Shown one piece after another: positions 9,216 through 34,693 of a stretch of DNA of 41,356 nucleotides. Every line of letters begins with the position of its first letter. Within the stretch, counting starts at the first letter, position 1. Made by a program: the position numbers and the translations under genes. Origin of the DNA: Halorubrum trapanicum (GTDB lineage Archaea; Halobacteriota; Halobacteria; Halobacteriales; Haloferacaceae). Under the pieces are notes generated by a model that worked only from the letters and a program-made list of their open reading frames with translations, was not told where the DNA came from and did no database searches. The stretch covers positions 1 to 41,356 of the forward strand of contig NZ_JAGGKE010000018.1 in the NCBI RefSeq assembly GCF_017873555.1, written 5' to 3'.

Positions 9216-9331
9216 TACCGAGCAATTGAACCGAGGATGCTTCAACGTGGGGGCTACTGTGAGTTGACACGCCCTCTGAACAGGCTGGCATCTACCGAAC
9301 ATTCGCGAGACTGATGTGGTCGGGGATGATC

Positions 9332-9727
9332 CTACGTCTCCTTGTGGCGGTCTCTGTAAGTTTTTGCCCCCAGAAAAACGTATACTGCGCCGATAACTCG
9401 TACACCTGTCGTGAATTGCTCGTTCCATTCGATAGCATCTGGGCGCTCATAGAGGACCGTGGAAGCAAACTTGCGATACAGGTCGGGAAACATGAGGACA
9501 GCTGCACCGAACGCCCCGGTGAGATTCATCATCCACGCATACAATCGGCTACCAAGTAGGGAGATCACGACTATCAGAATTCCTTCTGATCGTATAGCTG
9601 GGTTTACCCATTTCCTTAGGGTGCCTTCACTGGGATTAGTGATCGCATGTTTCTCAAAGAGCGCAACTATCTTGTCCGGGAACAATGTAGTAACAGCTCC
9701 GAGGACGCCGATAAGTATCCGTATCAT
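9332..9727 (-). CDS. Small membrane protein of unknown function
   Basis: A 131-aa protein with about three hydrophobic helices: residues 1-18, a central pair around 47-80, and one near 107-120 ([13 protein letters not shown]). The loops are basic and aromatic, and the tail is basic ([10 protein letters not shown]). The composition is less acidic and the DNA less GC-rich than the neighbours, so it may have a separate origin. No family is recognised. It lies between copB and acnA in the same direction; a functional link to copper is only positional. Confidence 0.65.
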
Positions 9728-16008: not shown

Positions 16009-16212
16009 TTACGTAGAGGCGTCGTACCCGGCGTCTTCGACCACAGTCACGAGGTCATCTGATTCAGCTGTTCCTTCGACTGTCGCGGATTCCGAGTCCC
16101 GATCCGCAGTCGCCGATGTGACTCCGTCGACTTCTTTGAGTGCTTCCTCTACAGTTTGCTCACAGTGTTCACAGGTCATTCCTTCGACCGAGATGGTCTG
16201 ACTCATATCCAT
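16009..16212 (-). CDS. copZ: CopZ-like HMA copper chaperone
   Basis: A 67-aa single heavy-metal-associated domain (65 aa if the ATG at 16206 is used) with G-M-T-C-E-H-C-E-Q-T-V as the metal-binding loop and the fold's terminal V-V-E-D-A-G-Y-D. Such proteins carry Cu+ in the cytoplasm and hand it to CopA or a sensor. It is divergent from the Lrp-TRASH regulator gene; their 128-base intergenic region holds a 10-mer shared with the copA upstream palindrome. This suggests joint copper control of chaperone, regulator and pump. The symbol is assigned by function class; orthology was not tested. Confidence 0.93.
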   Translation of the reverse strand: MDMSQTISVEGMTCEHCEQTVEEALKEVDGVTSATADRDSESATVEGTAESDDLVTVVEDAGYDAST

Positions 16213-16252
16213 ACATAATTAGGGCCCCCTATTCTATGTGCTTTTCTGCTTA

Positions 16253-16262
16253 GAATCCAAAG
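16253..16262 (-). promoter_or_regulatory. Candidate copper-regulator half-site between copZ and the Lrp-TRASH gene
   Basis: GAATCCAAAG on the plus strand is the exact reverse complement of the first ten bases (16938-16947) of the element upstream of copA. It lies 41 bases ahead of the copZ start and is overlapped by a short inverted repeat, AGAAT (16252-16256) / ATTCT (16265-16269). An operator function is inferred from sharing and position only. Confidence 0.4.
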
Positions 16263-16340
16263 TCATTCTGAGTTCAAAATCGCACTCTCAAAGGTTTATT
16301 TTGAGAAACAATAATGTATCCTGCGGTGCGACGCTATTGT

Positions 16341-16931
16341 ATGCGCAACCTAGACGAAACAGATCTGGAGATTCTCTCGTTACTAGCCGAAAACGCCCGT
16401 CGTCCATTTAGCGCCATCGGCGAAGAAGTTGATTTGTCCGGGCCAGCTGTTTCCGATCGAGTCCAACGATTACAGGAAGCAGATATTATCAACAATTTCA
16501 CGATCGATGTAAACCGGGCGCACCTTCGGGCCGGTGTTCCAGTATTCATTCAAACAGAAATCGAACCGGAATCACTCGAGGAGGCCCGTACGCGAGTCCG
16601 GGAATCGGACGGCATCGAACACGTCTTCACGACCTCAGAAGGCGATCTCTGGTTCTATGCCCGCGTTGAGGCACAGAACGTCCGTCAGTGGGTAGACAGT
16701 CTGTTTGATGGGCTTGGGATGTCTGGATATTCAGTCACCTTGATCGACGAAGCTGAATGGACGCCTTCGATCGACGGCGTCGAATTTGCTCTCACCTGCA
16801 CTGAATGTAACAATACCGTCGACAATGAAGGTGAGACGACGCGCATCGATGGCGAGATCTATCACTTCTGTTGCCCATCTTGTCTCGCACGGTTTGAAGA
16901 CCGCTATCAGCGGCTCGAAGAGGGTGTATAG
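16341..16931 (+). CDS. Lrp/AsnC-family copper-responsive regulator with TRASH domain
   Basis: A 196-aa regulator with an N-terminal Lrp-type HTH (D-E-T-D-L-E-I-L-S-L-L-A-E-N-A-R; recognition helix L-S-G-P-A-V-S-D-R-V-Q-R-L), a shortened central sensing region and a C-terminal TRASH metal-binding module with C153-T-E-C156 and C177-C178-P-S-C181. This architecture matches the Halobacterium regulator VNG1179C, described as needed to induce the copper ATPase YvgX. The gene stands 88 bases upstream of copA in the same direction. The ATG at 16341 is preferred; a GTG-led or ATG-led extension (16314) adds nine residues ahead of the HTH. Likely role: sensing cytoplasmic copper and activating copA. Confidence 0.93.
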   Translation: MRNLDETDLEILSLLAENARRPFSAIGEEVDLSGPAVSDRVQRLQEADIINNFTIDVNRAHLRAGVPVFIQTEIEPESLEEARTRVRESDGIEHVFTTSEGDLWFYARVEAQNVRQWVDSLFDGLGMSGYSVTLIDEAEWTPSIDGVEFALTCTECNNTVDNEGETTRIDGEIYHFCCPSCLARFEDRYQRLEEGV

Positions 16932-16938
16932 TACGCTC

Positions 16939-16951
16939 TTTGGATTCCAAA
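16939..16951. promoter_or_regulatory. Palindrome upstream of copA, candidate regulator operator
   Basis: TTTGGATTCCAAA is a perfect 13-base palindrome (6-base arms, one central base) located 8 bases after the Lrp-TRASH stop and about 70 bases before the copA start. Ten bases that include its left arm (16938-16947) recur inverted at 16253-16262. Lrp-type proteins bind short palindromes, so this is the best operator candidate here. Confidence 0.5.
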
Positions 16952-17019
16952 TTTTCTTGGTGTCAATAACCACCTTCTCGAAACAGTAAACCGCCTAAAC
17001 ATAGACCCCGTATAGTAAG

Positions 17020-19632
17020 ATGAGCATGACAAGCCGAACAACCCATCTCGATATTACGGGGATGTCCTGTGCCAACTGTTCAGGAACGATCCAGGACACC
17101 CTTGAATCCCTTGACGGGGTATCGAAGGCGGATGCGAACTTCGCCACCGACGAGGGATCCGTGACCTACGATCCCGATGAGGTATCACTCCAGGAAATCT
17201 ATGAAGCGATCGATGAGGCGGGCTACGGCATAGTCTCGGAGACGGTGTCTATTGCCATCTCCGATATGACGTGTGCCAATTGCGCCGAGACCAACAAAAC
17301 TGCTCTCGAGAATACACCGGGTGTCGTCACCGCCGAAGTCAACTACGCGACTGACGAAGCGCAGGTCACCTACAATCCGGCAGAGGTGTCTCTCAATACG
17401 CTGTATGATGCTATTGAGGACGCTGGCTACTCGCCCGTCCGCGAAGATGGTGATGACGACGAGTCGGGCCAAGACGCACGAGATGCCGCACGACAGGCTG
17501 AGACCCAAAAGCAACTCAGACTGACCCTCTTTGGGGCAGTGTTGTCGGCTCCGTTGCTCTTCTTCCTCATCGACAAATTTCTGCTCGGTGGCGCGATCGT
17601 CCCTGATGCCGTCTTCGGCGTTGAAATCGGGTGGCTCGAGTTCCTCCTCGCCACACCGGTGCAGGCGATCCTCGGCTGGCCGTTCTATAAGAACTCGTAC
17701 AAGGCGATCGTGAAAAACGGCCGCGCCAATATGGACGTGTTAATCGCAATCGGTTCAACAACCGCCTATCTCTACTCCGTGGCAGTCCTGTCTGAACTCA
17801 TTGCAGGTGGGCTCTACTTCGACACGGCAGCGCTCATCCTCGTGTTCATTACGCTCGGTAACTACCTCGAAGCTCGGTCGAAGGGGCAAGCGGGCGAGGC
17901 CCTCCGGAAGCTCCTCGAAATGGAAGCCGAGACGGCGACCATTATCCGCGAGGACGGCAGTGAAGAAGAAGTTCCGCTCGAAGAAGTCACAACGGGTGAC
18001 CGGATGAAAATCCGTCCGGGTGAAAAGGTTCCCACAGACGGCGTCGTTGTCGACGGTCAGTCCGCCGTCGACGAGTCGATGGTCACTGGTGAATCCGTCC
18101 CTGTAGAGAAGGAAGAGGGCGATGAGGTCGTCGGCTCGACGATTAACGAGAACGGCGTCCTTGTCGTGGAGGCGACAAAGGTCGGAGAAGATACGGCTCT
18201 TCAACAGATCGTTCAGACTGTCAAGGAGGCGCAGTCGCGCCAGCCCGACATCCAGAACCTCGCGGACCGTATCTCCGCGTACTTCGTGCCTGCGGTCATC
18301 GCGAACGCTCTCCTCTGGGGCATTGTTTGGTTCCTGTTCCCGGAGGTACTGGCTGGCTTCGTCGACTGGCTCCCGCTGTGGGGTCAGGTCGCTGGCGGCC
18401 CGGCCCCGGTCGGTGGGACCGTTTCCGTCTTCGAGTTCGCGATTATTGTCTTCGCGTCCTCGATCCTCATCGCCTGTCCCTGTGCGCTGGGGCTGGCGAC
18501 GCCCGCAGCCACGATGGTCGGGACGACGATTGGTGCCCAGAACGGCGTCCTGTTCAAGGGCGGTGACATCCTCGAACGCGCAAAAGACGTCGACACGGTC
18601 GTCTTCGACAAGACGGGCACCCTCACGGAGGGTGAAATGGAATTGACCGATGTGGTCGTCTTCGATAGCGATGGAAATGCAGTGACTGACGGTGGCGAGC
18701 CGACGCCAGATGGTGGACAGATCAGCACTCGTGAGCGCCTCTCCGAGGACAACGTGCTGCGGCTGGCGGCGATAGCAGAAAGCGGAAGCGAACACCCGCT
18801 CGCGCGGGCAATCGTCGACGGGGCTGAAGAACGCGGGCTGGACGTGACTGAGCCCGACGACTTCGAGAACGTTCCTGGTCACGGGATCAAAGCGGTTGTT
18901 GGTGACAACGAGGTACTGGTCGGCAACCGCAAGTTGCTGCGAGACAACGACATCGACCCGTCACCCGCCGAGGAGACGATGGAACGCCTCGAAAACGAGG
19001 GGAAGACGGCGATGCTTGTCGCTTCCGAGGGCAAACTGGTTGGTGTAGTGGCTGACGCCGACACAATCAAAGAGAGCTCCAAGCAGGCCGTTACAGCCCT
19101 CCAAGAGCGGGGCGTCGACGTAATGATGATTACGGGCGACAACGAGCGAACTGCTCGTGCGGTCGCCAAACAGGTGGGTATCGACCCGGAGAATGTCCGA
19201 GCAGGGGTCCTTCCCGAAGACAAGTCTAACGCGGTCGACAGTATTCAAGACGAGGGCCGTCAGGCGATGATGGTCGGAGACGGCGTCAACGACGCCCCCG
19301 CGCTCGCGGTCGCGCACGTGGGGACAGCCATCGGCTCCGGCACGGACGTGGCCATCGAGGCTGCAGACCTTACGCTGATGCGCGACGACCCGCTCGACGT
19401 GGTGAAGGCGATCCGAATCTCGGACGCGACACTCCAGAAGATCAAGCAGAACCTCGTGTGGGCGCTCGGATACAATACCGCGATGATTCCCCTCGCGTCG
19501 CTCGGGCTGCTCCAGCCGGTGCTCGCTGCAGCAGCAATGGCGTTCTCGTCGGTGTCGGTGCTGACGAACAGCCTGTTGTTCCGGCGGTACACCCCCGATC
19601 ACGACTACAAGCTCTTCGGGTTCCTTCGCTAA
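17020..19632 (+). CDS. copA: CopA-type Cu+-exporting P1B-1 ATPase
   Basis: An 870-aa pump with two N-terminal HMA domains (G-M-S-C17-A-N-C20 and D-M-T-C85-A-N-C88), a polar linker rich in Asp/Gln, eight membrane helices, TGES in the actuator domain, C486-P-C488 in the sixth helix, phosphorylated D530 ([10 protein letters not shown]), S-E-H-P-L-A and G-D-G-V-N-D-A-P. The helix-7 Y-N and helix-8 M-A-F-S-S motifs match the Cu+ subgroup P1B-1. It exports cytoplasmic Cu+ delivered by the chaperone. The start could be either ATG at 17020 or 17026. It is equivalent to YvgX of Halobacterium by architecture and by the neighbouring regulator. Confidence 0.97.
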
Positions 19633-21945: not shown

Positions 21946-22689
21946 GTGTATTCATCTATGGAAGCGCCCACAACCTCCACGACAGAGGCTACCACCAGCG
22001 AGGTACTCGTCCGTGCTGATGAGATTGAAAAAACGTACGGGTCAAACCTCCCATTTACACGATCGGTTCCCGTCCTCACCGGTGCCAATCTGGAAATCCG
22101 AGCAGGAGAAATCGTCGGAATCGTCGGGGGGAACGGTTCGGGGAAATCCACGCTTATGAACATCCTCGTCGGCGTCCTCAAGCAGGATTCCGGAGCAGTT
22201 GAACGAACAGGGACGGTTGGCTGGTGTCCACAAGAACCACTGCTTTACGACCGCCTGACGGTCACAGAGACGTTCCGCCTGTTCGGTTCCGGATACGGAA
22301 TGACCGCCGAAGAAATCGACGAGGCCAAACGCCGATTCGCATCGAAACTCGATTTCGAGCAGTACCTTGACTATCGAATCGACCAACTCAGCGGTGGAAA
22401 CCGACAAAAAATCAATCTCAGTATCGCCCTAATGCATGATCCGGACGTCCTCATGCTAGACGAGCCCTACACCGGGTTCGACTGGGAGACATATCTCATC
22501 TTCTGGGACCTCGCCGACGAACTTGCTGCCGACGGAACAGCTGTCGTAATGATTTCACACTTGATCGAGGAGCAGAGCCGTCTCGACCGTATCTACGAGG
22601 TTCGTGATGGACACGTCTACGACGTGACTGAGCGGGAAAGTGAGACCGAAGCGACGACCGGTGAACGGAGGAGAAAGGCCGATGAATAG
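21946..22689 (+). CDS. ABC transporter ATP-binding subunit
   Basis: A 247-aa ATPase (243 if the ATG at 21958 is used). Walker A is G-G-N-G-S-G-K-S-T, the Q-loop is C-P-Q-E-P, the signature is L-S-G-G-N-R-Q-K, Walker B is V-L-M-L-D-E-P-Y, and the switch His is in M-I-S-H-L. The Pro-free signature and the pairing with two hydrophobic permeases fit ABC-2 exporters (NosF or drug/peptide type). GGAG at 21939-21942 favours the GTG start. The next gene overlaps it by 8 bases, so the three genes 21946-24168 form one operon. Substrate unknown; DUF411 upstream hints at metal or metalloprotein handling. Confidence 0.93.
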   Translation: MYSSMEAPTTSTTEATTSEVLVRADEIEKTYGSNLPFTRSVPVLTGANLEIRAGEIVGIVGGNGSGKSTLMNILVGVLKQDSGAVERTGTVGWCPQEPLLYDRLTVTETFRLFGSGYGMTAEEIDEAKRRFASKLDFEQYLDYRIDQLSGGNRQKINLSIALMHDPDVLMLDEPYTGFDWETYLIFWDLADELAADGTAVVMISHLIEEQSRLDRIYEVRDGHVYDVTERESETEATTGERRRKADE

Positions 22690-23419
22690 AATTCAAACGG
22701 GGATCCGGACGAACGTCTCCACCTTCCTCAGGACCCCCCTGAATGTCGTCTTAGCACTCCTCCTTCCGGTTGTCGTTATCGAAGGCTGGGGACAAGCGAT
22801 GGCGGGGTTGCCAACTATGCCGACAGTTGAGGCGATTCCGATCGATCTGGGTCGCCTCCTCGGAGCGATATTCGGTGTCGCCATCATCGCCGGCCTGATG
22901 GGACTCGCCCAGATGATTAGTGCGCGTGCAGCCGATCGACGACTCGTTCAGACAGGCTATCCACCCCGAACACTGCTTGCGACTCGATTAGCGACGCTCG
23001 GAGGGGTCACGGTCGTCGTGGCTGCCGTGAACTACGGCGTGCTCTGGCTGACGATTTCACCGGAAGCCCCTGTCCTGACGTTCGTATTCCTCGTCCTCGC
23101 CGGCCTCGTCTATGCGTTTCTTGGCGCGCTCGTCGGTGCACTCCTTCCGCGACTGTTCGAAGGCTCGCTCGTCGTGGTGTTCCTCGCGATGATGGACGCG
23201 TTCCTCAGTGGCGACAGCCCGCTGGCTGCTGACATTCCTGAGTTCGTGGAATACTTCCCGCTCTATCATCCGAAGGAACTCCTTCAGGAGGCGATGTTCC
23301 AAGGTACATATACGACGGGCGACCTCGGCTTCGTTGCCGGATACCTGCTCGTCTTGCTCGTGCTCGTCACCGTAGTGTTCGGAGTGACGATGCGCACCAG
23401 TGGTGGGTGGTCCGCATGA
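22682..23419 (+). CDS. ABC transporter permease 1 (ABC-2 type)
   Basis: A 245-aa permease with about six membrane helices; the first follows the short N-terminal T-F-L-R-T-P-L-N-V-V amphipathic segment typical of ABC-2 proteins, and the second comes after G-R-L-L-G-A-I-F. No periplasmic domain of note. The ATG at 22682 overlaps the ATPase gene (ATGAATAG). It pairs with the following permease, with which it shares length, helix plan and the M-L-V/L-V-G-A-L loop, so a heterodimer is likely. Confidence 0.88.
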   Translation: MNRIQTGIRTNVSTFLRTPLNVVLALLLPVVVIEGWGQAMAGLPTMPTVEAIPIDLGRLLGAIFGVAIIAGLMGLAQMISARAADRRLVQTGYPPRTLLATRLATLGGVTVVVAAVNYGVLWLTISPEAPVLTFVFLVLAGLVYAFLGALVGALLPRLFEGSLVVVFLAMMDAFLSGDSPLAADIPEFVEYFPLYHPKELLQEAMFQGTYTTGDLGFVAGYLLVLLVLVTVVFGVTMRTSGGWSA

Positions 23420-24168
23420 ACCGTACGACAACGGCGTTCTCGATCGGCATCAAAGAACAGGCGCGTAACTACGTCCTCGTCGCTCTACTGGTCGTCCTAC
23501 CGGTCTCGTTCATCACGTTGGCGTTCGCAGTCACCCAGGACGTCGAGATGCCGGTTCGGACGCTCGTCGACGGTGAGACGGCGACGGTCATGCGGGGGAT
23601 GCCTGAGGTCCACGGCGTGATCATGACGCCGATTACGAGTGCTCTCATCGCCGGACTCGCCGGGTTGTTCCTGATGCGAGAAGCCAAAGACACGGACGGT
23701 CGTCTGGCAGTCGCTGGCTATCGTGCATGGCAGGTAATCGCTGCCCGGTTTGGGGTTCTCGCAGCAATTACTCTCATCGTCACCGGTGTCTCAGTTGGTG
23801 TGATGCTCGTCGATTTCCAGCCCGAGTATCTCTGGTGGTTCGTCGCAGCGATGCTCGTCGTCTCGGTCACGTATGGTCTCATCGGGATGCTCGTCGGGGC
23901 CGTCTTCAACCGCCTAGCCGGGATGTGGCTGATGCTGATTCTCCCGATGCTCGATATCGGACTGTTTCAGGATCCGCTGTTTATTCAATCTGAACCTGAT
24001 TGGTGGATGAAACTCTTTCCGGGCTATTGGCCAGTCCGTGTAATGGTCGATACCGGACTCACAACCGACGTAGATACGGCTCTCTCGTTGGTGTGGGCTA
24101 CTGGATATCTTCTCCTCGTAGCCGTGCTCGCAATTGGTGTTTACTACCGAGCCACACAGGCGAGTTGA
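23416..24168 (+). CDS. ABC transporter permease 2 (ABC-2 type)
   Basis: A 250-aa membrane protein, about six helices, with the same plan as permease 1 (F-L-M-R-E-A-K-D-T-D-G-R-L-A-V-A-G-Y-R after helix 2, matching the R-A-A-D-R-R-L-V-Q-T-G-Y segment of its partner). Its ATG at 23416 overlaps the previous stop (ATGA). It completes an ATPase plus two-permease exporter. Between helices 1 and 2 it has a loop with M-P-V-R-T-L-V-D-G-E-T that could face outside. Confidence 0.88.
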   Translation: MNRTTTAFSIGIKEQARNYVLVALLVVLPVSFITLAFAVTQDVEMPVRTLVDGETATVMRGMPEVHGVIMTPITSALIAGLAGLFLMREAKDTDGRLAVAGYRAWQVIAARFGVLAAITLIVTGVSVGVMLVDFQPEYLWWFVAAMLVVSVTYGLIGMLVGAVFNRLAGMWLMLILPMLDIGLFQDPLFIQSEPDWWMKLFPGYWPVRVMVDTGLTTDVDTALSLVWATGYLLLVAVLAIGVYYRATQAS

Positions 24169-24303: not shown

Positions 24304-25059
24304 TCAGTTGGAGATGTCCTCATCAGTAGCATCTAATCGCTCACGGCGACGTCTATACTCCTCCTCGTCAATTTCGCCCCTGGCATAGCGGTTCTGGAGC
24401 GTTTTTCTGGCTGAGTCGTCGGTAGTCGATTGAGGAGATTTTTGGTTTCCAAGCCAGTAGAGCCCGCCACCGAGAACGCCCAGCATTCCGAGTACGCCAC
24501 CAACAGCTGGTAGCCCTCCAACTCCACCTCCGTTGCGGCCACTCATCATTCCAGAACCACCTCGTCCCATCATTCCACCACCAGTATTCCCGCTTCCATC
24601 GCTGCTTGAGCCGTAGGCGACTGTACCCTGGTCAACAATCGCCTCACTCGATGGGACCTCTCCATCCGGGATTGAATCCTCCTCTGCCGGTCCGCCAGGA
24701 CTGCCAACTACGATCCGTCCGACCATCCCAATCGACTTGTGCGGGATGCAGTAGTAATCATACGTCCCTGGCGTTTCGAACGTATATTCGAAGCTCCCGT
24801 CTGAGATCGTCCCACTATCGAAGGCGGAAGCGCCCTCCGGAATACGATCTGCGTACGCCGTAGCGGAATGTGCCCCCGCTGCGAGTTCAAATTGAACGGT
24901 TGTCCCGGGATCAACACGTAGGCCGATTGGGTCGAAGTAATTGTTTCCCATCTCCACGATGGGCGTCTCCTGTGCGTTCGCTGACTGAGCAAAGCCGGTG
25001 CTGGCGACTGCGCTGGCACCGACAATGCCTAAGAATTGACGTCGGCTGTGATGTGTCAT
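24304..25059 (-). CDS. Halocyanin-TM-SHOCT fusion protein
   Basis: A 251-aa Tat-exported protein (S-R6... twin arginine near R6-R7, no lipobox). A plastocyanin-fold domain (residues about 33-120) has type-1 copper ligands H64 (A-G-A-H-S), C104 and H107 (Y-Y-C-I-P-H) and M112. A Gly/Met-rich flexible region (about 150-180) follows, then one transmembrane helix (about 183-204) and a C-terminal SHOCT motif (residues 219-244, N-R-Y-A-R-G-E-I-D-E-E-E-Y). The predicted topology is copper domain outside and SHOCT inside. Fusion of a blue copper domain to SHOCT is unusual. It leads a run of SHOCT and copper-related genes in the same direction. Confidence 0.9.
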   Translation of the reverse strand: MTHHSRRQFLGIVGASAVASTGFAQSANAQETPIVEMGNNYFDPIGLRVDPGTTVQFELAAGAHSATAYADRIPEGASAFDSGTISDGSFEYTFETPGTYDYYCIPHKSIGMVGRIVVGSPGGPAEEDSIPDGEVPSSEAIVDQGTVAYGSSSDGSGNTGGGMMGRGGSGMMSGRNGGGVGGLPAVGGVLGMLGVLGGGLYWLGNQKSPQSTTDDSARKTLQNRYARGEIDEEEYRRRRERLDATDEDISN

Positions 25060-25286
25060 GTTGTCTGGATCATTCTTCGGTGGGTAGCTACGCGCGATAC
25101 TGGTGCGAAGACTTCGGACGTGACTCACTCCGAACTTGTCGTTTGTTCCCATTACTACTCATAACCATATGCTGAATCGAGCACACCATTTCGATGTAAC
25201 GGAACGATGCTGCCGAACGGTTGGTTTCGATACCCTCGAGTCGATCCGCAGGTGTTCAAACGGGTGAAACGCGGTTTGGGTAGTGG

Positions 25287-25640
25287 TCACTCTGATTGTT
25301 CGAGCTTTTCTCGTCGGGCTTCGAACTCTTCGTCCGTGAGATCGCCACGAGCGTACGCCAGACGTAACTCTTCCATCGCGGGATTATGAGACGTCTGTGT
25401 CTCGCTCATCCGCCGGAAGATGAGATATCCACCGCCCAGAAGCGCAAGGAGGAAGATGACCGGGACGAGCATCCCGATGAGGGGCCACCAACCACCTGTG
25501 GTACCGTACTGGCCCATCATTCCTCCGTATCCCATCATCCCACCGAACCCCATACCCATTGTGAGCAAGGGAAGGAGGATGAACGCTCCGAGGACGATGA
25601 GCAGTATCGTCGTCGTATCCAGTTGATCCGATGATGCCAT
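25287..25640 (-). CDS. SHOCT-domain membrane protein
   Basis: A 117-aa protein: helix 1 (about 10-30), a Gly/Met-rich stretch (M-G-M-G-F-G-G-M-M-G-Y-G-G), helix 2 (about 52-75), a linker and a C-terminal SHOCT motif (L-A-Y-A-R-G-D-L-T-D-E-E-F-E-A-R-R). Methionines in the extracellular or membrane-edge segment could bind Cu+. SHOCT is a short C-terminal helix found at the end of many membrane proteins and is thought to mediate oligomerisation. Six bases separate it from the stop of the DUF302 gene upstream, so they are co-transcribed. Confidence 0.85.
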   Translation of the reverse strand: MASSDQLDTTTILLIVLGAFILLPLLTMGMGFGGMMGYGGMMGQYGTTGGWWPLIGMLVPVIFLLALLGGGYLIFRRMSETQTSHNPAMEELRLAYARGDLTDEEFEARREKLEQSE

Positions 25641-25646
25641 CAGAGA

Positions 25647-26063
25647 TCAGGCCTCCGATGCGGATCCGAACTCGTCAGTTACGGCTGCCAGTACGCGGTC
25701 GAATCGTTCGCTGACCTCGGTCGCGACGGAGTCAAGCGCGTCGTTATCAGCGATCCCGACTAACTGTTCCGGGTCGACCGCACTCACCACGATGACGCCG
25801 TCATCGTTCTCGTAGACGATGACGTTACAGGGCAAGAGCGCACCGAGTTCAGTTTCTACACTCAACCCTTCGTATGCCAGCGGAGGATTGCACGCACCGA
25901 GGATGCGATACTGGCGGAACTCCTCACCGAGTTTCTCCTTGAGCGTCGCCTGAATGTCGATGTCACAGAGAACACCGAATCCCTCGTCTTTGAGCGCGGC
26001 ATTCGTTGCGTCGACGACATCGTCGAACTCTCCATCAATCTTGGTTTGTATTGTGTAACTCAT
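25647..26063 (-). CDS. DUF302 family protein
   Basis: A 138-aa soluble protein with the DUF302 signature: G-F-G-V-L-C-D-I-D-I near residue 30 and I-L-G-A-C-N-P-P-L-A-Y-E-G then L-L-P-C-N-V-I-V-Y-E. DUF302 domains have a beta-alpha fold and occur beside redox and metal genes in bacteria and archaea; the two conserved cysteines may bind metal or a redox partner. The ATG at 26063 (M-S-Y-T-I-Q) is chosen; the longer frame adds a non-conserved segment. Co-transcribed with the SHOCT gene after it. Confidence 0.92.
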   Translation of the reverse strand: MSYTIQTKIDGEFDDVVDATNAALKDEGFGVLCDIDIQATLKEKLGEEFRQYRILGACNPPLAYEGLSVETELGALLPCNVIVYENDDGVIVVSAVDPEQLVGIADNDALDSVATEVSERFDRVLAAVTDEFGSASEA

Positions 26064-26122
26064 GTAATACTGTATCCTGTTTACGCACTTAAGCGTTCGG
26101 TCCCGTCGCCCCAACTGGCAGA

Positions 26123-26138
26123 CGAGAATTTTTTCTCG
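26123..26138 (-). terminator. Possible stem-loop after the SHOCT gene at 26169
   Basis: CGAGAA / TTCTCG arms (6 bases each) around a TTTT loop lie just past the SHOCT stop codon in the reading direction and ahead of the DUF302 start. It could end the upstream transcript; archaeal terminators usually need only a T-run, so support is weak. Confidence 0.35.
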
Positions 26139-26168
26139 ACGATGCTCCTTCTATTTCGGTCATGGGCA

Positions 26169-26516
26169 CTACTCGAGTTGCTTTCGTCGACGTTCGAACT
26201 CTTCATCGGAGAGTTCACCGCGAGCGTAACGCTCACGAAGAACCGAAAGCGGCCGACTATCACTCCTCTCAGAATCTCTGTTGAGGAGTGAGTAGACGAG
26301 ATAGAGCGGGACGACGATTAGGAGCCCCATCCAAAGGAAGCTCCAGAGGCCCATTCCACCGCTGAAGACCCCCCAACCGCCGCTACCCATCATACCGCCG
26401 CCGTAGCCTCCACCACCGTGAGCCGCTGCGGTGCCCGTTGCTACAATCAACAGCGGAACCGCTAGTATTGCGATTCGACGAGTCGTCCGCCCGAGAGTGT
26501 TGGTGTAGTGTGTCAT
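26169..26516 (-). CDS. Exported SHOCT-domain membrane protein
   Basis: A 115-aa protein with an N-terminal signal-like helix (about 13-30), a His/Gly/Met-rich segment (A-H-G-G-G-G-Y-G-G-G-M-M-G), a transmembrane helix (about 56-78) and a C-terminal SHOCT motif (R-E-R-Y-A-R-G-E-L-S-D-E-E-F-E-R-R). It is built like the SHOCT gene at 25287, so three SHOCT-tailed membrane proteins occur within 2.2 kb. The metal-binding suggestion comes from the Met/His content and the context. Confidence 0.83.
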   Translation of the reverse strand: MTHYTNTLGRTTRRIAILAVPLLIVATGTAAAHGGGGYGGGMMGSGGWGVFSGGMGLWSFLWMGLLIVVPLYLVYSLLNRDSERSDSRPLSVLRERYARGELSDEEFERRRKQLE

Positions 26517-26579
26517 TGTGATCGTTGAGTCAGTAAGTCGAATATCTATCGTGTCAGACGAGGATCCGAACAGGGATCG

Positions 26580-26897
26580 TTAGCAGCCGTACCCCTGTCC
26601 GTTCATCCCCGTCGCGGTGTGATTGTCGTCCGCCATATCTTGGGCCATCTCGTCGACGGTCACGCCCATGTGCGCTTCCATCTCGTCAACGGCATTCGGG
26701 CCCATGTAGTCGGTCATGTGACCTTCCATCCAGGCCGCCCAGTCTGCTGCACTACCATCGGCTGGCGTCCCTTCAGCTGCCGTCTCGTTCCCCTGGATCG
26801 GTTCGTCACCGTGTGCGCTAACTACCGGGGCGGCAAACGCGAGTCCGACAATCGCGAGCACCACGAGCAGCCATCGTCCGAGGTTTCGGTTGGTCAT
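26580..26897 (-). CDS. Exported Met/His-rich small protein, putative copper binder
   Basis: A 105-aa protein with a clear signal peptide (hydrophobic residues 9-22, A-P-V-V-S-A-H-G) and an acidic mature region. The second half is rich in methionine and histidine (W-M-E-G-H-M-T-D-Y-M-G, M-E-A-H-M-G, D-E-M-A-Q-D-M-A-D-D-N-H) and ends in a lone cysteine (G-Y-G-C). Met/His-rich periplasmic proteins commonly bind Cu+/Cu2+. No named family recognised. The ATG at 26897 is chosen because the signal peptide follows immediately. Confidence 0.75.
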   Translation of the reverse strand: MTNRNLGRWLLVVLAIVGLAFAAPVVSAHGDEPIQGNETAAEGTPADGSAADWAAWMEGHMTDYMGPNAVDEMEAHMGVTVDEMAQDMADDNHTATGMNGQGYGC

Positions 26898-27169
26898 TGT
26901 TTTTCGCCTCAAGTAGTCATACGGTGGGTTCGGAGTTATCTTCGTGGGAGTGAACTCAAACAGGAGAGCGTTCAAGAACGTCTATAACGCCATCTAAACG
27001 TTTTCTACTGACGGGATCGTTCATACCTGCCGAATTCGAAAGGATCAGAGGAATGGTGAGAGCAAAGGGGATCCGTCGAGACTGTTCACCTCATTGCGGC
27101 GATCCAGACAATAACCACGGTTCAGGCGGCGAGGGAGGCTCGGGTATTGCTGACCACGAACGAGATGGA

Positions 27170-27874
27170 TCAGTTCCCTCGGAACTGGTGATACTGCCTC
27201 GTGAGTGCCTGACGATGGTAGAGGATTCCAATTGTCATGAGGAACAGAACGGTCGCAATTTCGTAGCCATACGCACCAAGCAATAACATCGTTGAAGAAC
27301 CACTCAGTCCGCCTGCAAGTAGTACGGCAAACAACGGGCTAACGCAGGCAGGGCACGCCACAATCCCGACTATTCCTCCGACTGCCGACTGCGAGAAATC
27401 AAGCAATGCATCATAGACGAGATACGCCAGCGCGAACAGGCCAACCGCTTGGTAAGGAATGAGCGAGACCGTGATCAGGTCACCTGTATAGACGAAGACC
27501 GGACTCCATCCCAAAGATCGACCCCACGTTATTCCGAAGCCGCTTGGTCCAGTGAGCTGCCCGAAATGAGAGGTGCTCGGTCCAAGTAATCCTGAAAAAT
27601 AAAACATCACGATGAGATATAGAGCAACGACAAGTGCGGCACCAATACGATACACTCGACGTTTCGTTACAGGTCGAGTGTGCCAGATCACCCAGACTGA
27701 GGCGGTGAACCAAATAAATGGAAGGACGAAATGGGTCCACCGGCTCCCCATATCTCCTGTGAAATATGCGTACACCAACCCGGCGATCAACTGTGCGGCG
27801 AGGAGGAGATTGAGCCACGTGCTTGACTTGAGAACCCGGCTAATGCGATCAGTTTCGAGTGTTGCTTGTGACAT
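27170..27874 (-). CDS. Polytopic membrane protein with ACPAC motif
   Basis: A 234-aa protein with about six transmembrane helices, possibly the haloarchaeal DUF7546 family. The fifth helix starts G-I-V-A-C-P-A-C-V-S-P-L-F, a CxxC pair inside a membrane, reminiscent of metal-transport or thiol-redox sites such as those of CcdA/DsbD-type or ArsP-type proteins. It lies just downstream of the membrane-tethered HTH gene in the same direction. Function unknown; a role in copper or arsenic transport is inferred from context and the Cys pair. Confidence 0.75.
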   Translation of the reverse strand: MSQATLETDRISRVLKSSTWLNLLLAAQLIAGLVYAYFTGDMGSRWTHFVLPFIWFTASVWVIWHTRPVTKRRVYRIGAALVVALYLIVMFYFSGLLGPSTSHFGQLTGPSGFGITWGRSLGWSPVFVYTGDLITVSLIPYQAVGLFALAYLVYDALLDFSQSAVGGIVGIVACPACVSPLFAVLLAGGLSGSSTMLLLGAYGYEIATVLFLMTIGILYHRQALTRQYHQFRGN

Positions 27875-27907
27875 GATGGGTAGTGTTAGTATGAATTTCT
27901 ACGTCTG

Positions 27908-28489
27908 TTAGTTCTGCAGGTCATCACTCGGATACACGCGGTAGGTTCGACCCTGTCGTTCCCGATACAGCAGCCCGCGCTCCTCGAGTGAACTCACGGT
28001 CTGGCTCACTTTACTCTTTGAGAACTCAGATCGATCCCGAAGTTCGATCTGCGTGATTCCAGGCGAGTTCAGGACGGGTTCAAGGACGCGTCGTTCATCA
28101 TCCGGTAAGAGATCGAGAACGCGCGCTTGCGGATCCGATTCAGGATTGATAGGCGTCGCCGGCGAGGCGTCATCGTCTATCGATGTAGGCGTTGCCTCCG
28201 ATACCTGATCGGGGTCGATGTGATCCGCTGAGTCGGTTGTCGAATCGATGAGATTCCCTCGAACCACGTAATAGATGCCACCGATACTGCCTGCGACCAG
28301 AAGGGTTCCAACCACGTACCAGAGAGGATCTGGACCGTGAATCGCCCCCATAGACGAGTCCATCATCGGCCCCATCGACTGCTCGATAGCGCGACGCTGT
28401 TGATAGGCCCGCCAACTGAGTAGTCCGCCAGCCAAGAGGACGAACCCAAGGAGCACACCAACGACGGTATCCGCTGGACGTTGGTTCAT
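27908..28489 (-). CDS. Membrane-tethered winged-helix regulator
   Basis: A 193-aa protein: two hydrophobic segments (about 8-25 and 60-80) with a short Met-rich loop between (S-M-G-P-M-M-D-S-S-M-G-A-I-H-G-P), then an acidic linker and a C-terminal MarR/IclR-like winged helix (L-L-P-D-D-E-R-R-V-L-E-P-V; S-K-S-K-V-S-Q-T-V-S-S-L-E-E-R-G-L). Topology would place the loop outside and the DNA-binding domain inside. Such one-component membrane sensors can read extracellular signals; the Met-rich loop makes copper a candidate ligand. The ATG at 28489 is chosen. It lies between the permease and the ACPAC protein genes. Confidence 0.85.
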   Translation of the reverse strand: MNQRPADTVVGVLLGFVLLAGGLLSWRAYQQRRAIEQSMGPMMDSSMGAIHGPDPLWYVVGTLLVAGSIGGIYYVVRGNLIDSTTDSADHIDPDQVSEATPTSIDDDASPATPINPESDPQARVLDLLPDDERRVLEPVLNSPGITQIELRDRSEFSKSKVSQTVSSLEERGLLYRERQGRTYRVYPSDDLQN

Positions 28490-28614
28490 ATGACATCCCC
28501 TTGTTTCGATATCTGACTGCTCATACAATCAATTTTGGCGCGACAGGTGTGACAATTGCGGATTGAAGGTGCGATGATGAAGTGCTTCACAGCGGATGAA
28601 CCACAGTACATCTA

Positions 28615-30003
28615 TCAGTGATCGTGATCGTGGTTTGTTATCTGCGGGCTTTGATCAGCAAATTCCGTGGGCTCTTCCTCGAATGCCCGCTTACAGGTCT
28701 TCGAGCAAAAATAGTACGTCATCCCATCATTGGACGCACTCGGCCCCTCATCGTCGGTCCGCATGCCACACACCGGATCACGATACTGACCTGGTGCGCC
28801 GATTCCACGTCGGTAGACATACAGGAGGAACCCGGAGAGCGCGAAGGCGATAATATTGAGGTAGAACGTGTAGTTGAGCTCGAAGTACGTCTGTTCGGTC
28901 GCCGTCTCGCCACCGGCCAGATCTGGTACGATGCCGAGGGCGTCGAACAGCAACTCCATGAGGAAGCCAGTGAACGCCATCGTCACGAAGAAGACGCCAA
29001 GGATGTACAGCATGATCTTCCAGCCGTAGTACTTCCGGTAGACGTTCAGCACGGGCACGGTGATGAGGTCGGCGTAGACGAACGCGATGATCCCGGCGAA
29101 GCTGACGCCACCGCCCCACAGCGCGACGGCGAACGGGACGTTGCCCATACTGCCGACGAAACTGAGGACGGCGATGATGACGCCCATGACGGCGTTCTCG
29201 GCAGTCACGAGCAGGCCGTCGCCCTGAATGAACAGCGTGTTCCACACCCACTGCGGGACGAAGACGATGACGAACCCAGAAATAAGGAAGCCGGCGACGA
29301 TGTCTTTCCAGATCATCGACCACTCCTTGCGGTACTGATTCCCGACCTTGTACCAGCCACCCCACGACAGCAACTCGTCACGCCACCCGCCGCTACTCGA
29401 CGTCTCCTGGCGATAGGTCTCCATACAGCCCTCCGAGCAGAATTTGAGCGTCTCACCGCCGTCGGTCGTGAGCGTGTACTCGTCTTTCCCCTCCATCCCG
29501 CAGGTGGGATCTTCCGTGACGCCCGCCTGGCGGTCGCGCTCGTTGAGCTTCTCGCGGACTTCGTTAAACAGGTTTTCGGGAAGCGTAAGGTGGACGATGG
29601 CGGCCATGACGGCGATGAGAATCAGGCCGCCGAGCAGTTCCGCGACGAGGAACTCCCAGCCAAGCAGGATGAGAATCATCAGCCCTAGTTCGACGATGAG
29701 GTTCGTCGACGCGAACATGAACGCGAGGAAGTTCACCGCGTGCGCCCCCTTCTTGAACAGGCCCTTCCCGATGGCGACGGCGCCGAAGCTACAGCCACTG
29801 CTTGCTGCTCCGAACACAGTCGCCTTGGTAAGTCCAGTTAGATCGCCCTCACCCAGCACCTGTGCCATCCGCTCCTTCGAGACGTAGACCTGGACCAGAC
29901 TCGTAATCGTGAGGCCCATGATGATCGCCCACGCCGCCGTCCAGAGAAATCCGACACCGATACGAAGGGATTCAAGAACTCCGTCGATTATCGTCGCCTG
30001 CAT
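28615..30003 (-). CDS. ArsP/DUF318-like permease with two YHS/TRASH metal modules
   Basis: A 462-aa permease with about eight to ten membrane helices; a S-S-G-C71-S-F-G-A-V-A-I segment resembles the conserved Cys motif of this transporter family. Two YHS/TRASH-like modules are inserted: residues 165-193 (D-P-T-C168-G-M, F-C189-S-E-G-C193) in a cytoplasmic loop and residues 409-437 (D-P-V-C412-G-M, F-C433-S-K-T-C437) after the last helix, plus a C-terminal H-D-H-D-H. YHS is a metal-binding domain often tied to copper. Likely a metal-sensing or metal-delivering permease; the transported species is unknown. Stop at 28615 is 126 bases ahead of the HTH gene. Confidence 0.9.
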   Translation of the reverse strand: MQATIIDGVLESLRIGVGFLWTAAWAIIMGLTITSLVQVYVSKERMAQVLGEGDLTGLTKATVFGAASSGCSFGAVAIGKGLFKKGAHAVNFLAFMFASTNLIVELGLMILILLGWEFLVAELLGGLILIAVMAAIVHLTLPENLFNEVREKLNERDRQAGVTEDPTCGMEGKDEYTLTTDGGETLKFCSEGCMETYRQETSSSGGWRDELLSWGGWYKVGNQYRKEWSMIWKDIVAGFLISGFVIVFVPQWVWNTLFIQGDGLLVTAENAVMGVIIAVLSFVGSMGNVPFAVALWGGGVSFAGIIAFVYADLITVPVLNVYRKYYGWKIMLYILGVFFVTMAFTGFLMELLFDALGIVPDLAGGETATEQTYFELNYTFYLNIIAFALSGFLLYVYRRGIGAPGQYRDPVCGMRTDDEGPSASNDGMTYYFCSKTCKRAFEEEPTEFADQSPQITNHDHDH

Positions 30004-31827: not shown

Positions 31828-32352
31828 TCAGGAATTTCTGTGGGCGCGAACGAACGCACGTCGCAGGACGGTCAGAAGAACGTACGTCTCGTACTTCTGG
31901 GTCTGGCAGTGCTCGCAGGGCTGCATATCCTCGACGATCTCCTCAATAGCGTCGTCGTACTCGTCGGTGAGCGTAGTGAGCGCGTCCGTGATCTGGGGCT
32001 GGGCAGCGTCGATCATCTCCTCGACGGCGGCGTCGGCCGAATCTGGTAGTGAGTACGAGAGGACGATCGTGTTCGCGTGGTAGTACTTCGTCGTCCCACC
32101 ACGCCCCTCCTCGAAGCGAACGACGTCGACGAGGCCCGCATCCCGGAGCTCGTTGATGTGATGGCGGACCGTGTTCTCCGTCCGGTCGATGCCGCGATCG
32201 TCGAGGCGTTCGTGGACCTCGGTCGCAGTTAGGGCTTCCTCGGACAGAATGTCGAGGACCATCGCCCGCATCGGCTCGTCGATGGCGTCCGAAATCCGAG
32301 TGTCTCGCACCGCGATGTCGTCGAGACGGTGGTCGGTATCGGAATCACTCAT
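31828..32352 (-). CDS. ArsR-like winged-helix regulator with C-terminal CxxC
   Basis: A 174-aa regulator: winged helix in the N-terminal half (P-M-R-A-M-V-L-D-I-L-S-E-E-A-L-T; recognition helix T-E-N-T-V-R-H-H-I-N-E-L-R-D-A-G-L-V), then an acidic helical dimerisation region, and a C-terminal C-E-H-C-Q-T-Q-K-Y pair that could bind zinc or another thiophilic metal. It is divergent from the HMA-ATPase pair, with a 201-base shared promoter region. It likely represses them in the absence of metal. The ATG at 32352 is chosen; the upstream frame extension has no conserved character. Confidence 0.88.
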   Translation of the reverse strand: MSDSDTDHRLDDIAVRDTRISDAIDEPMRAMVLDILSEEALTATEVHERLDDRGIDRTENTVRHHINELRDAGLVDVVRFEEGRGGTTKYYHANTIVLSYSLPDSADAAVEEMIDAAQPQITDALTTLTDEYDDAIEEIVEDMQPCEHCQTQKYETYVLLTVLRRAFVRAHRNS

Positions 32353-32509
32353 ACGAGGACTGAGCGCGAGCACGCGGGAAAAGGTAGCGGGGCAGGAGTC
32401 GGGTAGGTGTCTGTCGAGGTATCCAGTACAGGATGGACCCGCGATAGCGAAAGCCCTAGACGACCCGTTTGACTGTTCCAACGACTCGTATCCGAATTCA
32501 AACATATCA

Positions 32510-32553: not shown

Positions 32554-32769
32554 ATGAGCGACACAACCCAATTCCGCGTCCTCGACTTCGACTGCCCGAC
32601 CTGCGCGAGTACCGTCGAACGCGCCCTGTCGAACGTCGACGGCGTCCAGCACGTCGAAGTCCACTACGCGACCGGCCGCGTCGAGATCGAGTACGACGAC
32701 AGCGTCGCTGACCCCGACGCCTTCGCAGAGACCATCGAAAACCAGGGGTACACTCCCCAGCCCGCCTAA
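32554..32769 (+). CDS. Stand-alone HMA metal-binding protein
   Basis: A 71-aa HMA domain with the metal loop F-D-C-P-T-C-A-S-T-V and the closing I-E-N-Q-G-Y-T-P. Its stop is 4 bases before the ATPase start, and the ATPase has no HMA domain of its own, so it looks like a split-off N-terminal domain or a dedicated chaperone. CPTC and the position next to a P1B ATPase suggest delivery of a soft metal to that pump. Confidence 0.92.
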   Translation: MSDTTQFRVLDFDCPTCASTVERALSNVDGVQHVEVHYATGRVEIEYDDSVADPDAFAETIENQGYTPQPA

Positions 32770-32773
32770 CACT

Positions 32774-34693
32774 ATGAACAAACAATCGATCACGCAGTAC
32801 TACCGGAACCACCGGAAGGCCATCGTCACGGCGACAAGCGGCCTGCTGTACGGCGGTGGCTGGAGTCTCGGCTACCTCACGAGTTTCGAGATGGCAAGCG
32901 CCGCCATCCTCGTCCTCGCGACAGTCGTGGGTGGCTACGACATCGCCAAGACCGCTTACCACGAGGTCACCAACCGGACGCTCGGCATCAAGACGCTGGT
33001 GACGCTGGCCGCCATCGGTGCTATCGTCATCGGGGAGTACTGGGAAGCCGCCGCCGTCGTCTTCCTGTTCAGCCTTGGCAGCTACCTCGAAGGCCGGACG
33101 ATGCGGAAGACCCGGACGGCACTTCAGGAGCTACTGGAGATGACGCCCGACACGGCGACCGTCCGTCGCGACGGGACACTCCAAAAGGTCTCCGCCCGCG
33201 ATGTCGAAGAGGGCGAAGTCGTCGTCGTAAAGCCGGGCGGGAAGATCCCGGTCGACGGAACCGTCGTCGACGGCGAGAGCGCAGTCAACCAGGCGCCGGT
33301 CACCGGCGAGAGCGCGCCCGTCCACAAGGCCGACAGCGACGAGGTGTACGCCGGGACGGTCAACCAGGAGGGCGCGCTAGAAATCCGGACGACGGGAGCG
33401 GGATCGGATACGACTCTCGAACGGATCATCCGTCGCGTCGAGGAGGCCCAGGAGGCTCAGTCGCCCACGGAGAGTCTCATCGACCGGTTCGCGAAGTACT
33501 ACACGCCGGCCGTCATTGCCCTGGCTATCGGCGCGTACGCGGTCACGCAGAACGCGATCCTGTCGCTGACGCTGCTGGTCATCGGCTGTCCGGGCGCGCT
33601 GGTCATCGGGCCACCGGTCAGCATCGTCTCGGCCATCGGTAACGCCGCCCGGTCGGGCGTGCTGATGAAGGGCGGCGAACACCTCGAACGCGCCGGCAAG
33701 ATCGATCTCGTCGCCTTCGACAAGACGGGGACGCTCACGAAGGGCGAGACCACCGTCTCCGGTATCGAGGGGTTCGGCGTCGCCGCCGCCGACGTCCTCT
33801 CGCTCGCAGCGACCGCCGAGAAGAAGAGCGAACACCACCTCGCGGACGCCATCGTCGACATGGCCCGCGAACGCCAGACGGCTGCGACGGACGGTGGAGC
33901 GACGGTCGCCCAAGCGGACGATACGGACGTGGGGCGCAGGTCGGTCCCCGATCCCGACGACTTCGACGTGGTCGCCGGCAAGGGCGTCATCGCCCATGCC
34001 GATGGCCAGGAAGTCGTCGTCGGCAACCGCGCGCTGCTGGACGACCGCGACGTCGATGTCCCCGATCGGGTCGCCGACTACGTCCGCGAGCGTGAGGGGC
34101 GCGGCGAGACAGTCGTCCACGTCGTTCGGGACGGGGACATCATCGGCGCGATTGCGATGCGGGACGAGCTCCGGGAGGCCGCTCCTGGGGTCGTCGCGGC
34201 GCTCCAAGACGCTGGCATCGAGACGGTGATGCTCACCGGCGACAACGAGCGGACGGCCGCTGCCGTTGCCGAGGAGGTCGGTATCGACGAGTACCGTGCC
34301 GAACTCCTCCCCGAGGACAAGCAGTCCGTCATCGAGGGCTACCAGGCCGACGGCCACGTCGTCGCGATGGTCGGCGACGGCATCAACGACGCGCCATCGC
34401 TGGCCACTGCCGATGTCGGCATCGCGATGGGTGCTGCGGGAACGGACACCGCTATCGAAACGGCTGACATGGCGTTGATGGCCGACGACCTCGAACGCAT
34501 CCCGTACGCGGTCAAACTCAGCAAGGCGACGCGCTGGAACGTCCTCGAGAACGTCGGGCTCGCGGTGCTGACCGTGACCGTCCTCCTCGCGGGCGTGCTC
34601 ACCAGCTACGTCACCCTCGCGTCGGGAATGCTGGTCCACGAGGCCAGCGTCCTCCTCGTCATCCTCAACGGGATGCGACTGCTCCGCTACTGA
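32774..34693 (+). CDS. P1B-type metal ATPase with atypical CPG motif
   Basis: A 639-aa pump without an N-terminal HMA domain. It has four N-terminal helices, TGES, the transmembrane motif C272-P-G274 where pumps normally show CPC, CPH or SPC, phosphorylated D316 (DKTGTLTKGE), and the hinge M-V-G-D-G-I-N-D-A-P. The nucleotide motif reads S-E-H-H-L-A in place of SEHPLA. The last helix has V-H-E-A-S-V-L-L-V-I-L-N, resembling the HEGG(S/T) signature of P1B-4 (Co/Zn/Fe-type) pumps. Substrate cannot be read with confidence: Zn2+, Cd2+ or Co2+ are likelier than Cu+. Confidence 0.93.
   Translation: MNKQSITQYYRNHRKAIVTATSGLLYGGGWSLGYLTSFEMASAAILVLATVVGGYDIAKTAYHEVTNRTLGIKTLVTLAAIGAIVIGEYWEAAAVVFLFSLGSYLEGRTMRKTRTALQELLEMTPDTATVRRDGTLQKVSARDVEEGEVVVVKPGGKIPVDGTVVDGESAVNQAPVTGESAPVHKADSDEVYAGTVNQEGALEIRTTGAGSDTTLERIIRRVEEAQEAQSPTESLIDRFAKYYTPAVIALAIGAYAVTQNAILSLTLLVIGCPGALVIGPPVSIVSAIGNAARSGVLMKGGEHLERAGKIDLVAFDKTGTLTKGETTVSGIEGFGVAAADVLSLAATAEKKSEHHLADAIVDMARERQTAATDGGATVAQADDTDVGRRSVPDPDDFDVVAGKGVIAHADGQEVVVGNRALLDDRDVDVPDRVADYVREREGRGETVVHVVRDGDIIGAIAMRDELREAAPGVVAALQDAGIETVMLTGDNERTAAAVAEEVGIDEYRAELLPEDKQSVIEGYQADGHVVAMVGDGINDAPSLATADVGIAMGAAGTDTAIETADMALMADDLERIPYAVKLSKATRWNVLENVGLAVLTVTVLLAGVLTSYVTLASGMLVHEASVLLVILNGMRLLRY

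Follow-up and report, generated by a model that had tools for sequence, protein, structure and literature searches.

Archaeal copper islands have been described in which genes for SHOCT-domain and DUF302 proteins accompany the efflux machinery. For Cuniculiplasma and Mia14, the accessible part of the report (PMC5498576) names a copper ATPase, an Lrp-type regulator, a chaperone, and adjacent SHOCT and DUF302 genes, and contains no mention of a cupredoxin-SHOCT fusion. Here we describe a 41,356-nucleotide stretch of Halorubrum trapanicum contig NZ_JAGGKE010000018.1 (hereafter "the window"), which holds genes of all these kinds and, in addition, a gene in which a type-1 copper domain (cupredoxin) is joined to a membrane helix and a SHOCT tail. 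The window also parallels the haloarchaeal copper efflux network of VNG1179C and VNG0700G (PMC3551603), which comprises an Lrp-family TRASH regulator, a P1-type ATPase, and HMA chaperones; counterparts lie at 16009-19632, and the word "halocyanin" does not occur in that paper. A copper ATPase and an Lrp/TRASH-type regulator are found in the same island, the combination by which we recognize a copper resistance island.

The separate parts of the fusion are familiar. It shares PF00127 and the type-1 ligand residues with pseudoazurins, plastocyanins, and halocyanins, but scores below the NCBI cut-offs of all three and adds a Gly/Met segment, a helix, and a SHOCT domain. SHOCT proteins (PF09851; PMC3581485) carry a short near-C-terminal domain without indels, as do the tails studied here, and the main text of that paper contains no occurrence of copper, plastocyanin, or cupredoxin. 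The merR-copA-cupredoxin clusters of mobile Alteromonas genomic islands place a cupredoxin gene next to a copper ATPase, but as a separate gene, and SHOCT is absent from that paper (PMC8478169). Nor does SHOCT occur in the available text of a catalogue of Haloferax mediterranei halocyanins (PMC9240420). In Haloferax alexandrinus, silver is reported to induce copA together with two petE genes and a membrane protein bearing SHOCT (PMC10694973). Our literature search, which covered part of the matching papers and mainly openly available ones, found no report of a cupredoxin-SHOCT fusion. As far as the accessible literature goes, SHOCT and DUF302 genes beside archaeal copper islands are already in print, and the fusion is apparently unreported.

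The cupredoxin-SHOCT fusion and its conservation

The fusion gene (24304-25059, minus strand) encodes 251 amino acids from its likely start. The longest open reading frame extends to 25152, but translation probably begins at M32 (25059), because relatives align only from about that position. The 251-residue form carries a twin-arginine translocation (Tat) motif, SRRQFLG, followed by the type-1 copper domain (PF00127; 24706-24939, residues 41-118; 45.1 bits against a gathering threshold of 21.2), a Gly/Met-rich segment (24520-24609; 39% Gly and 13% Met over 20 aligned sequences), one apparent membrane helix (24451-24519), and, in the same frame as PF00127, a SHOCT domain (PF09851; 24334-24408, residues 218-242 of 251; 31.8 to 32.2 bits against a threshold of 27). 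An earlier reading of these letters (the original prediction) had claimed such a joining of a copper domain to SHOCT within 24304-26897, and it is confirmed on the minus strand. With helices assigned by eye, the cupredoxin would lie outside the cell and the SHOCT domain inside.

The same prediction labeled the protein a halocyanin. A PF00127 copper domain is indeed present, but the name is loose because the curated halocyanin model stays under its cut-off (TIGR03102, 49.5 bits against 93.8). The pseudoazurin model likewise falls short (TIGR02375, 51.9 bits against 109.85), and the closest solved structures are pseudoazurins (best match, 9.3e-15). AlphaFold2 models of the fusion (25-row alignment; mean predicted local distance difference test score, 44.6) and of an exported protein encoded in the same cluster (57.1) were too poor for a fold search. 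In the low-confidence fusion model, strands are followed by helices at residues 212-226 and 232-250, an order that fits a cupredoxin and a SHOCT hairpin and that was not used as evidence.

Scanning contigs for relatives of the fusion gave 245 stretches, of which the best 80 were kept: 47 haloarchaeal loci with the fusion type, intact or broken (L009-L055), and 33 outgroup cupredoxins (L056-L088). PF00127 matched all 25 distinct fusion relatives (E ≤ 0.01) and PF09851 matched 23 of them; among the outgroup cupredoxins, the same E value gave 33/33 and 0/33, respectively. Residues H64, C104, H107, and M112, which from general knowledge of cupredoxins we take to be the type-1 copper ligands, are invariant in 25/25. 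Across 391 Halobacteria genomes, 58 have full-length matches (reaching position 244 or beyond of the 248-position profile), and these span 29 of 86 genera and 8 families. Six of the 58 carry stop codons within the match, of which some may simply mark where the gene ends, and another count of two are without the N-terminal part. Every one of the 391 genomes matches the fusion profile somehow; scoring was limited to 7 candidates in nearly all of them, and the weaker matches listed cover mainly the cupredoxin part. The presence of both domains in relatives and of full-length copies in 58 genomes rules out the possibility, raised with the original prediction, that the fusion is a unique product of a frameshift.

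Constraint varies along the protein. By a simple counting method on 20 sequences, the ratio of nonsynonymous to synonymous change (pN/pS) is lowest in the cupredoxin domain (0.18) and rises through SHOCT (0.23), the helix (0.34), and the Gly/Met stretch (0.43) to the spacer that separates the helix from SHOCT (0.61). From these values, we conclude that the tail is under purifying selection and is kept for a reason. Damaged copies also occur. L018 and L048 have no recognizable SHOCT tail and apparently out-of-frame C-termini, L053 and L054 are split, L055 is cut at its 5' side, and L033 (identical in location to L091) contains an internal stop and no longer carries the first His ligand. In L051 and L052 (4353-6606; Halorubrum saccharovorum DSM 1137 and Halorubrum sp. 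CSM-61), the gene is interrupted by about 1.5 kb.

A module shared by three neighboring proteins

Two further small membrane proteins with Met-bearing outer segments carry the same tail, as had been proposed. SHOCT1 (25287-25640, minus strand) has two apparent membrane helices, a GFGGMMGYGGMMG loop, and a SHOCT tail at 25302-25379; SHOCT2 (26169-26516, minus strand) has an apparent signal peptide, a GGGMMG segment, one apparent membrane helix, and a SHOCT tail at 26175-26252. Both exceed the PF09851 gathering threshold of 27 (29 and 41.8 bits, respectively). The match stops short of the C-terminus by 9 residues in the fusion, 4 in SHOCT1, and 1 in SHOCT2, which puts all three within the last 50 residues, where 89.2% of SHOCT domains lie (PMC3581485). 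A single ungapped 26-mer fits the SHOCT domain of 26/28 fusion rows (L018 and L048 excepted), 17/17 SHOCT1 sequences, and 13/13 SHOCT2 sequences. Only 8 SHOCT matches occur in the 3.08-Mb assembly, and because 3 of them fall within 2 kb at the fusion cluster, their grouping is not due to chance.

The likeness among these proteins extends past the tail. Within its own genome, the fusion profile matches SHOCT1 over positions 160-246 (9.7e-12) and SHOCT2 over positions 152-243 (7.1e-11). Since these matches cover the Gly/Met segment, the helix, and SHOCT, the shared unit exceeds SHOCT alone, and the simplest description of the sequences is one module set on three N-termini: a signal peptide in SHOCT2, a membrane helix in SHOCT1, and a Tat-exported type-1 copper domain in the fusion. 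Methionine pairs are conserved in both small proteins (M42 and M43 invariant in 13/13 SHOCT2 sequences; M36 and M41 invariant and M35 and M42 nearly so in 17 SHOCT1 sequences). Each paralogue has its own tail signature, mostly GEIDE in the fusion and GDLTD/GDLTE and GELSD in the others, and tail identity is 0.69 to 0.89 within a paralogue versus 0.49 to 0.55 between paralogues.

Other SHOCT proteins were seen in passing. One SHOCT protein located away from the island (G000:C1:249993-250070) has a Gly/Met stretch, MGGMAGSGMAGGMGGAM. In six loci (L139:14445-14816, L141-L144, and L159), a further Met/Trp-rich, two-helix SHOCT protein is encoded divergently to a permease with YHS stretches; no SHOCT match was found upstream of the corresponding permease of the window, where an amidohydrolase-like gene sits. 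Among viral contigs, tblastn found no relative of SHOCT1.

We also examined four of five listed bacterial SHOCT loci, all four on plasmids, a sample that is not a survey. In each of these SHOCT proteins, a stretch containing MM precedes the apparent helix. In three of the four loci, a heavy-metal ATPase is no more than 6 kb away from the SHOCT gene; in two of these, in Roseovarius and Thalassobaculum, the same distance also takes in a multicopper oxidase. On a Deinococcus peraridilitoris plasmid (L181:3061-6784), genes for an ATPase, a cupredoxin, a Met-rich SHOCT protein, and TlpA are consecutive. In Deinococcus, the neighboring cupredoxin and SHOCT genes correspond to the haloarchaeal fusion divided over two genes, although this cupredoxin belongs to PF13473, not PF00127.

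The gene cluster, its variation, and its mobility

The fusion is the last gene of a minus-strand series transcribed in the order YHS permease, MarR-like regulator, DUF7546 protein, exported protein, SHOCT2, DUF302, SHOCT1, and fusion. The exported Met/His-rich protein (26580-26897) was correctly predicted, except that it does not follow the SHOCT genes but lies upstream of them in transcription order. It has no Pfam match, and eight Met residues besides the start are invariant in 16/16 distinct relatives. All proteins named in the original prediction are present, but it overlooked the DUF302 gene between the two small SHOCT genes (25647-26063; 89 bits), whose GACNP and LPCNV cysteines are kept in 22 distinct aligned relatives. 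Farther upstream on the same strand are the DUF7546 membrane protein (27170-27874), recognized by a domain match; the MarR-like regulator (27908-28489, its start taken from an annotated relative); and an ArsP_1-type permease with two YHS stretches (28615-30003), also assigned by domain matches. The regulator has two apparent membrane helices, with a Met-rich loop between them (MGxMMxxSMGxxHG) that is kept in 9/9 distinct sequences; based on this loop, it is a possible one-component sensor of outside copper or silver.

Conservation of the cluster was assessed in two overlapping sets that were kept separate. The 47 loci, with flanks of about 6 kb, are redundant (L009-L018 are nearly one sequence, and L021-L030 have the same fusion protein); 34 diverse loci (L145-L178) come from 32 of the 58 full-length genomes and were chosen for spread. 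Within 8 kb of the fusion, the 47 loci contain DUF302 in 40, SHOCT1 in 38, SHOCT2 in 38, the exported protein in 37, a helix-turn-helix (HTH) regulator in 27, thioredoxin in 25, the YHS permease in 25, and CopA in 4. In the diverse set, the counts near the fusion are 25 each for DUF302 and thioredoxin, 22 for SHOCT1, 19 for SHOCT2, 17 for the exported protein, 12 for the permease, and 10 for the HTH regulator. The order of exported protein, SHOCT2, DUF302, SHOCT1, and fusion on one strand is found in 35/47 loci. In 7/47, all four partners are missing from the strand of the fusion over a distance of 8 kb, and some of these solitary fusions may result from contig ends or broken genes. Conversely, a full fusion is absent from two genomes (G015 and G019; loci L139 and L140) that encode the small SHOCT proteins and DUF302, followed downstream by a copper-type ATPase. 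The five genes thus do not strictly need each other.

Thioredoxin and DUF302 are at least as constant beside the fusion in the diverse set as the SHOCT proteins are, and a thioredoxin-fusion pair is perhaps the core of the set. On an annotated Haloarcula marismortui plasmid, a thioredoxin (PF00085, CGAC motif) is encoded between SHOCT1 and the fusion. At the same place in the window, tblastn found no thioredoxin match at E values up to 1; the stretch aligns loosely with the Haloarcula gene, and given the tblastn result, we do not claim a decayed thioredoxin there.

The block at 24304-30003 shares 99.8 to 99.9% DNA identity over 5.7 kb with L009-L018, ten loci whose assigned genera are Halorubrum, Natrinema, Halosimplex, and Halobellus. 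Such identity across genera points to recent movement of the block between them, and several copies of the cluster are on plasmids. We conclude that the fusion, a variant built from known parts, is real, conserved, and mobile and that its setting is of the copper type.

That setting includes, in the same island, an HMA-domain small protein of the copper-chaperone type (16009-16212, minus strand), an AsnC-type regulator with a C-terminal TRASH domain (16314-16931, plus strand; PF24273 TRASH, 89.2 bits; AsnC HTH, 54.9 bits), and a copper-translocating type P-type ATPase with a CPC motif (17020-19632, plus strand; TIGR01511, 562.9 bits against a cut-off of 397). A second ATPase of this type, CopB-like and with a CPH motif, lies at 7098-9428 on the minus strand (TIGR01511, 615.3 bits). 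Elsewhere in the window, a cadmium/heavy-metal type P-type ATPase (32774-34693, plus strand) has the unusual metal motif CPG (VIGCPGALVIGPP), identical in 6/6 close homologues, the window copy counted; it is adjoined by genes for an HMA protein (32554-32769) and an HTH regulator (31828-32505). An ATP-binding cassette (ABC) ATPase gene and two further genes, the first for an ABC-2 type permease, converge on the fusion gene from the plus strand (21946-24168), and in 23/47 haloarchaeal loci the ABC ATPase gene lies no farther than 8 kb from the fusion.

Copper handling and alternative explanations

A copper role for the cluster is well supported by sequence and context. We consider the link likely because of the invariant type-1 ligands, the conserved Met pairs, the two copper-type ATPases, the AsnC/TRASH regulator, and the YHS permease. 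Our favored reading, to which we give about an even chance, is that the cluster is a membrane-surface set for handling copper (and probably silver) in a mobile metal-resistance island, with capture on the outer face tethered near efflux. The Met segments and the exported Met-rich protein would bind Cu(I) or Ag(I) on the outer face, whether exported by the ATPases of the island or the YHS permease or arriving from outside. The cupredoxin domain would then hold the copper or exchange an electron with it, preventing re-entry. The inner SHOCT domain would hold each protein at the membrane and probably dock a partner such as an efflux pump, and DUF302 and, where present, thioredoxin may supply thiols. 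We infer metal binding by the Met segments, and neighbors and mobility point to detoxification as the direction; docking of SHOCT to machinery below the membrane is a guess. The original prediction had the set collect or sense copper. Its copper link is likely, but detoxification is the likelier purpose, because the neighbors are of the efflux type and the MarR-like regulator is a better sensor candidate.

Several observations weigh against this reading. Among the diverse loci, only 13/34 have the five-gene order, and 8/34 have the fusion without the other four genes. A copper-type ATPase lies within 8 kb of the fusion in 4/47 loci and in at most 4/34 (CopA in 2 and CopB in 2), the flanks being short. 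Constraint on the Gly/Met segment is comparatively low for the fusion (pN/pS, 0.43), and half of this segment is lost in two relatives (L043 and L047). One broken fusion copy sits among phosphate-uptake genes. The SHOCT gene of Martelella, one of the four bacterial loci, is accompanied by a two-component system, DUF302, and Ccm genes, and the 12 kb examined there contain no annotated metal pump. Finally, four of the five other SHOCT proteins of the genome are without a Met segment, so SHOCT itself is not a copper domain.

The tail may instead be a mere tag for membrane retention or stability, and the fusion a membrane-bound electron carrier whose place in the island is incidental to copper defense. 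Pseudoazurins, its closest solved relatives, are electron carriers, and the fusion is often found without SHOCT genes but with thioredoxin (25/34); SHOCT-like domains are, moreover, predicted to anchor proteins at the inner leaf of the membrane and to help assemble membrane-associated complexes in the accessible part of a 2024 study (PMC11237479). We nevertheless regard a simple tag as unlikely, since the apparent helix already anchors the fusion and SHOCT is still kept under selection, and since, on the annotated plasmids of Halorubrum and Haloarcula, most of the neighboring genes relate to metals and not to respiration. The complex-assembly part of that published prediction bears on another account, put forward with the original prediction, in which the three tails bind one another and build a single membrane complex for collecting or sensing extracellular copper. 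The closeness of 3 of the 8 genomic SHOCT matches within 2 kb and the ordered five genes in 35/47 loci would suit it. Set against this, SHOCT fused to CD4 domains stayed monomeric by size exclusion, in the sole published test of SHOCT that we found (PMC3581485), and the tails are conserved separately, with identities higher within paralogues (0.69 to 0.89) than between them (0.49 to 0.55). The genes are also separable, as small SHOCT genes occur without the fusion in L139 and L140, and the fusion without the other four in 7/47 and 8/34 loci. Co-assembly through shared tails therefore finds no support here, and we think it quite improbable.

Acquisition of copper for delivery to cuproenzymes seems very improbable. 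By analogy, a cupredoxin, a thioredoxin, and an ABC-2 type transporter resemble cuproenzyme-assembly parts. The island, however, encodes a pair of copper-translocating type ATPases along with an AsnC/TRASH regulator and a permease of the efflux type, and the distribution is patchy, with recent spread between genera, features that fit acquisition poorly.

A bolder extension of our favored reading, which we offer as doubtful, is that the Met segment, helix, and SHOCT form a portable copper device used in archaea and bacteria. Its outer Met site would take Cu(I) or Ag(I) straight from a SHOCT-docked efflux pump, with the haloarchaeal fusion adding a blue-copper receiving site and the Deinococcus pair representing the two-gene form. 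If this is true, one small protein would couple both faces of the membrane. SHOCT is widespread, and its roles are only predicted in the papers cited above; here it is linked to properties open to assay, blue copper and copper tolerance, and because haloarchaea have workable genetics, its function is open to direct test. The recurrence of Met segment-helix-SHOCT proteins in metal islands of archaea and bacteria suggests a small, overlooked kind of resistance part.

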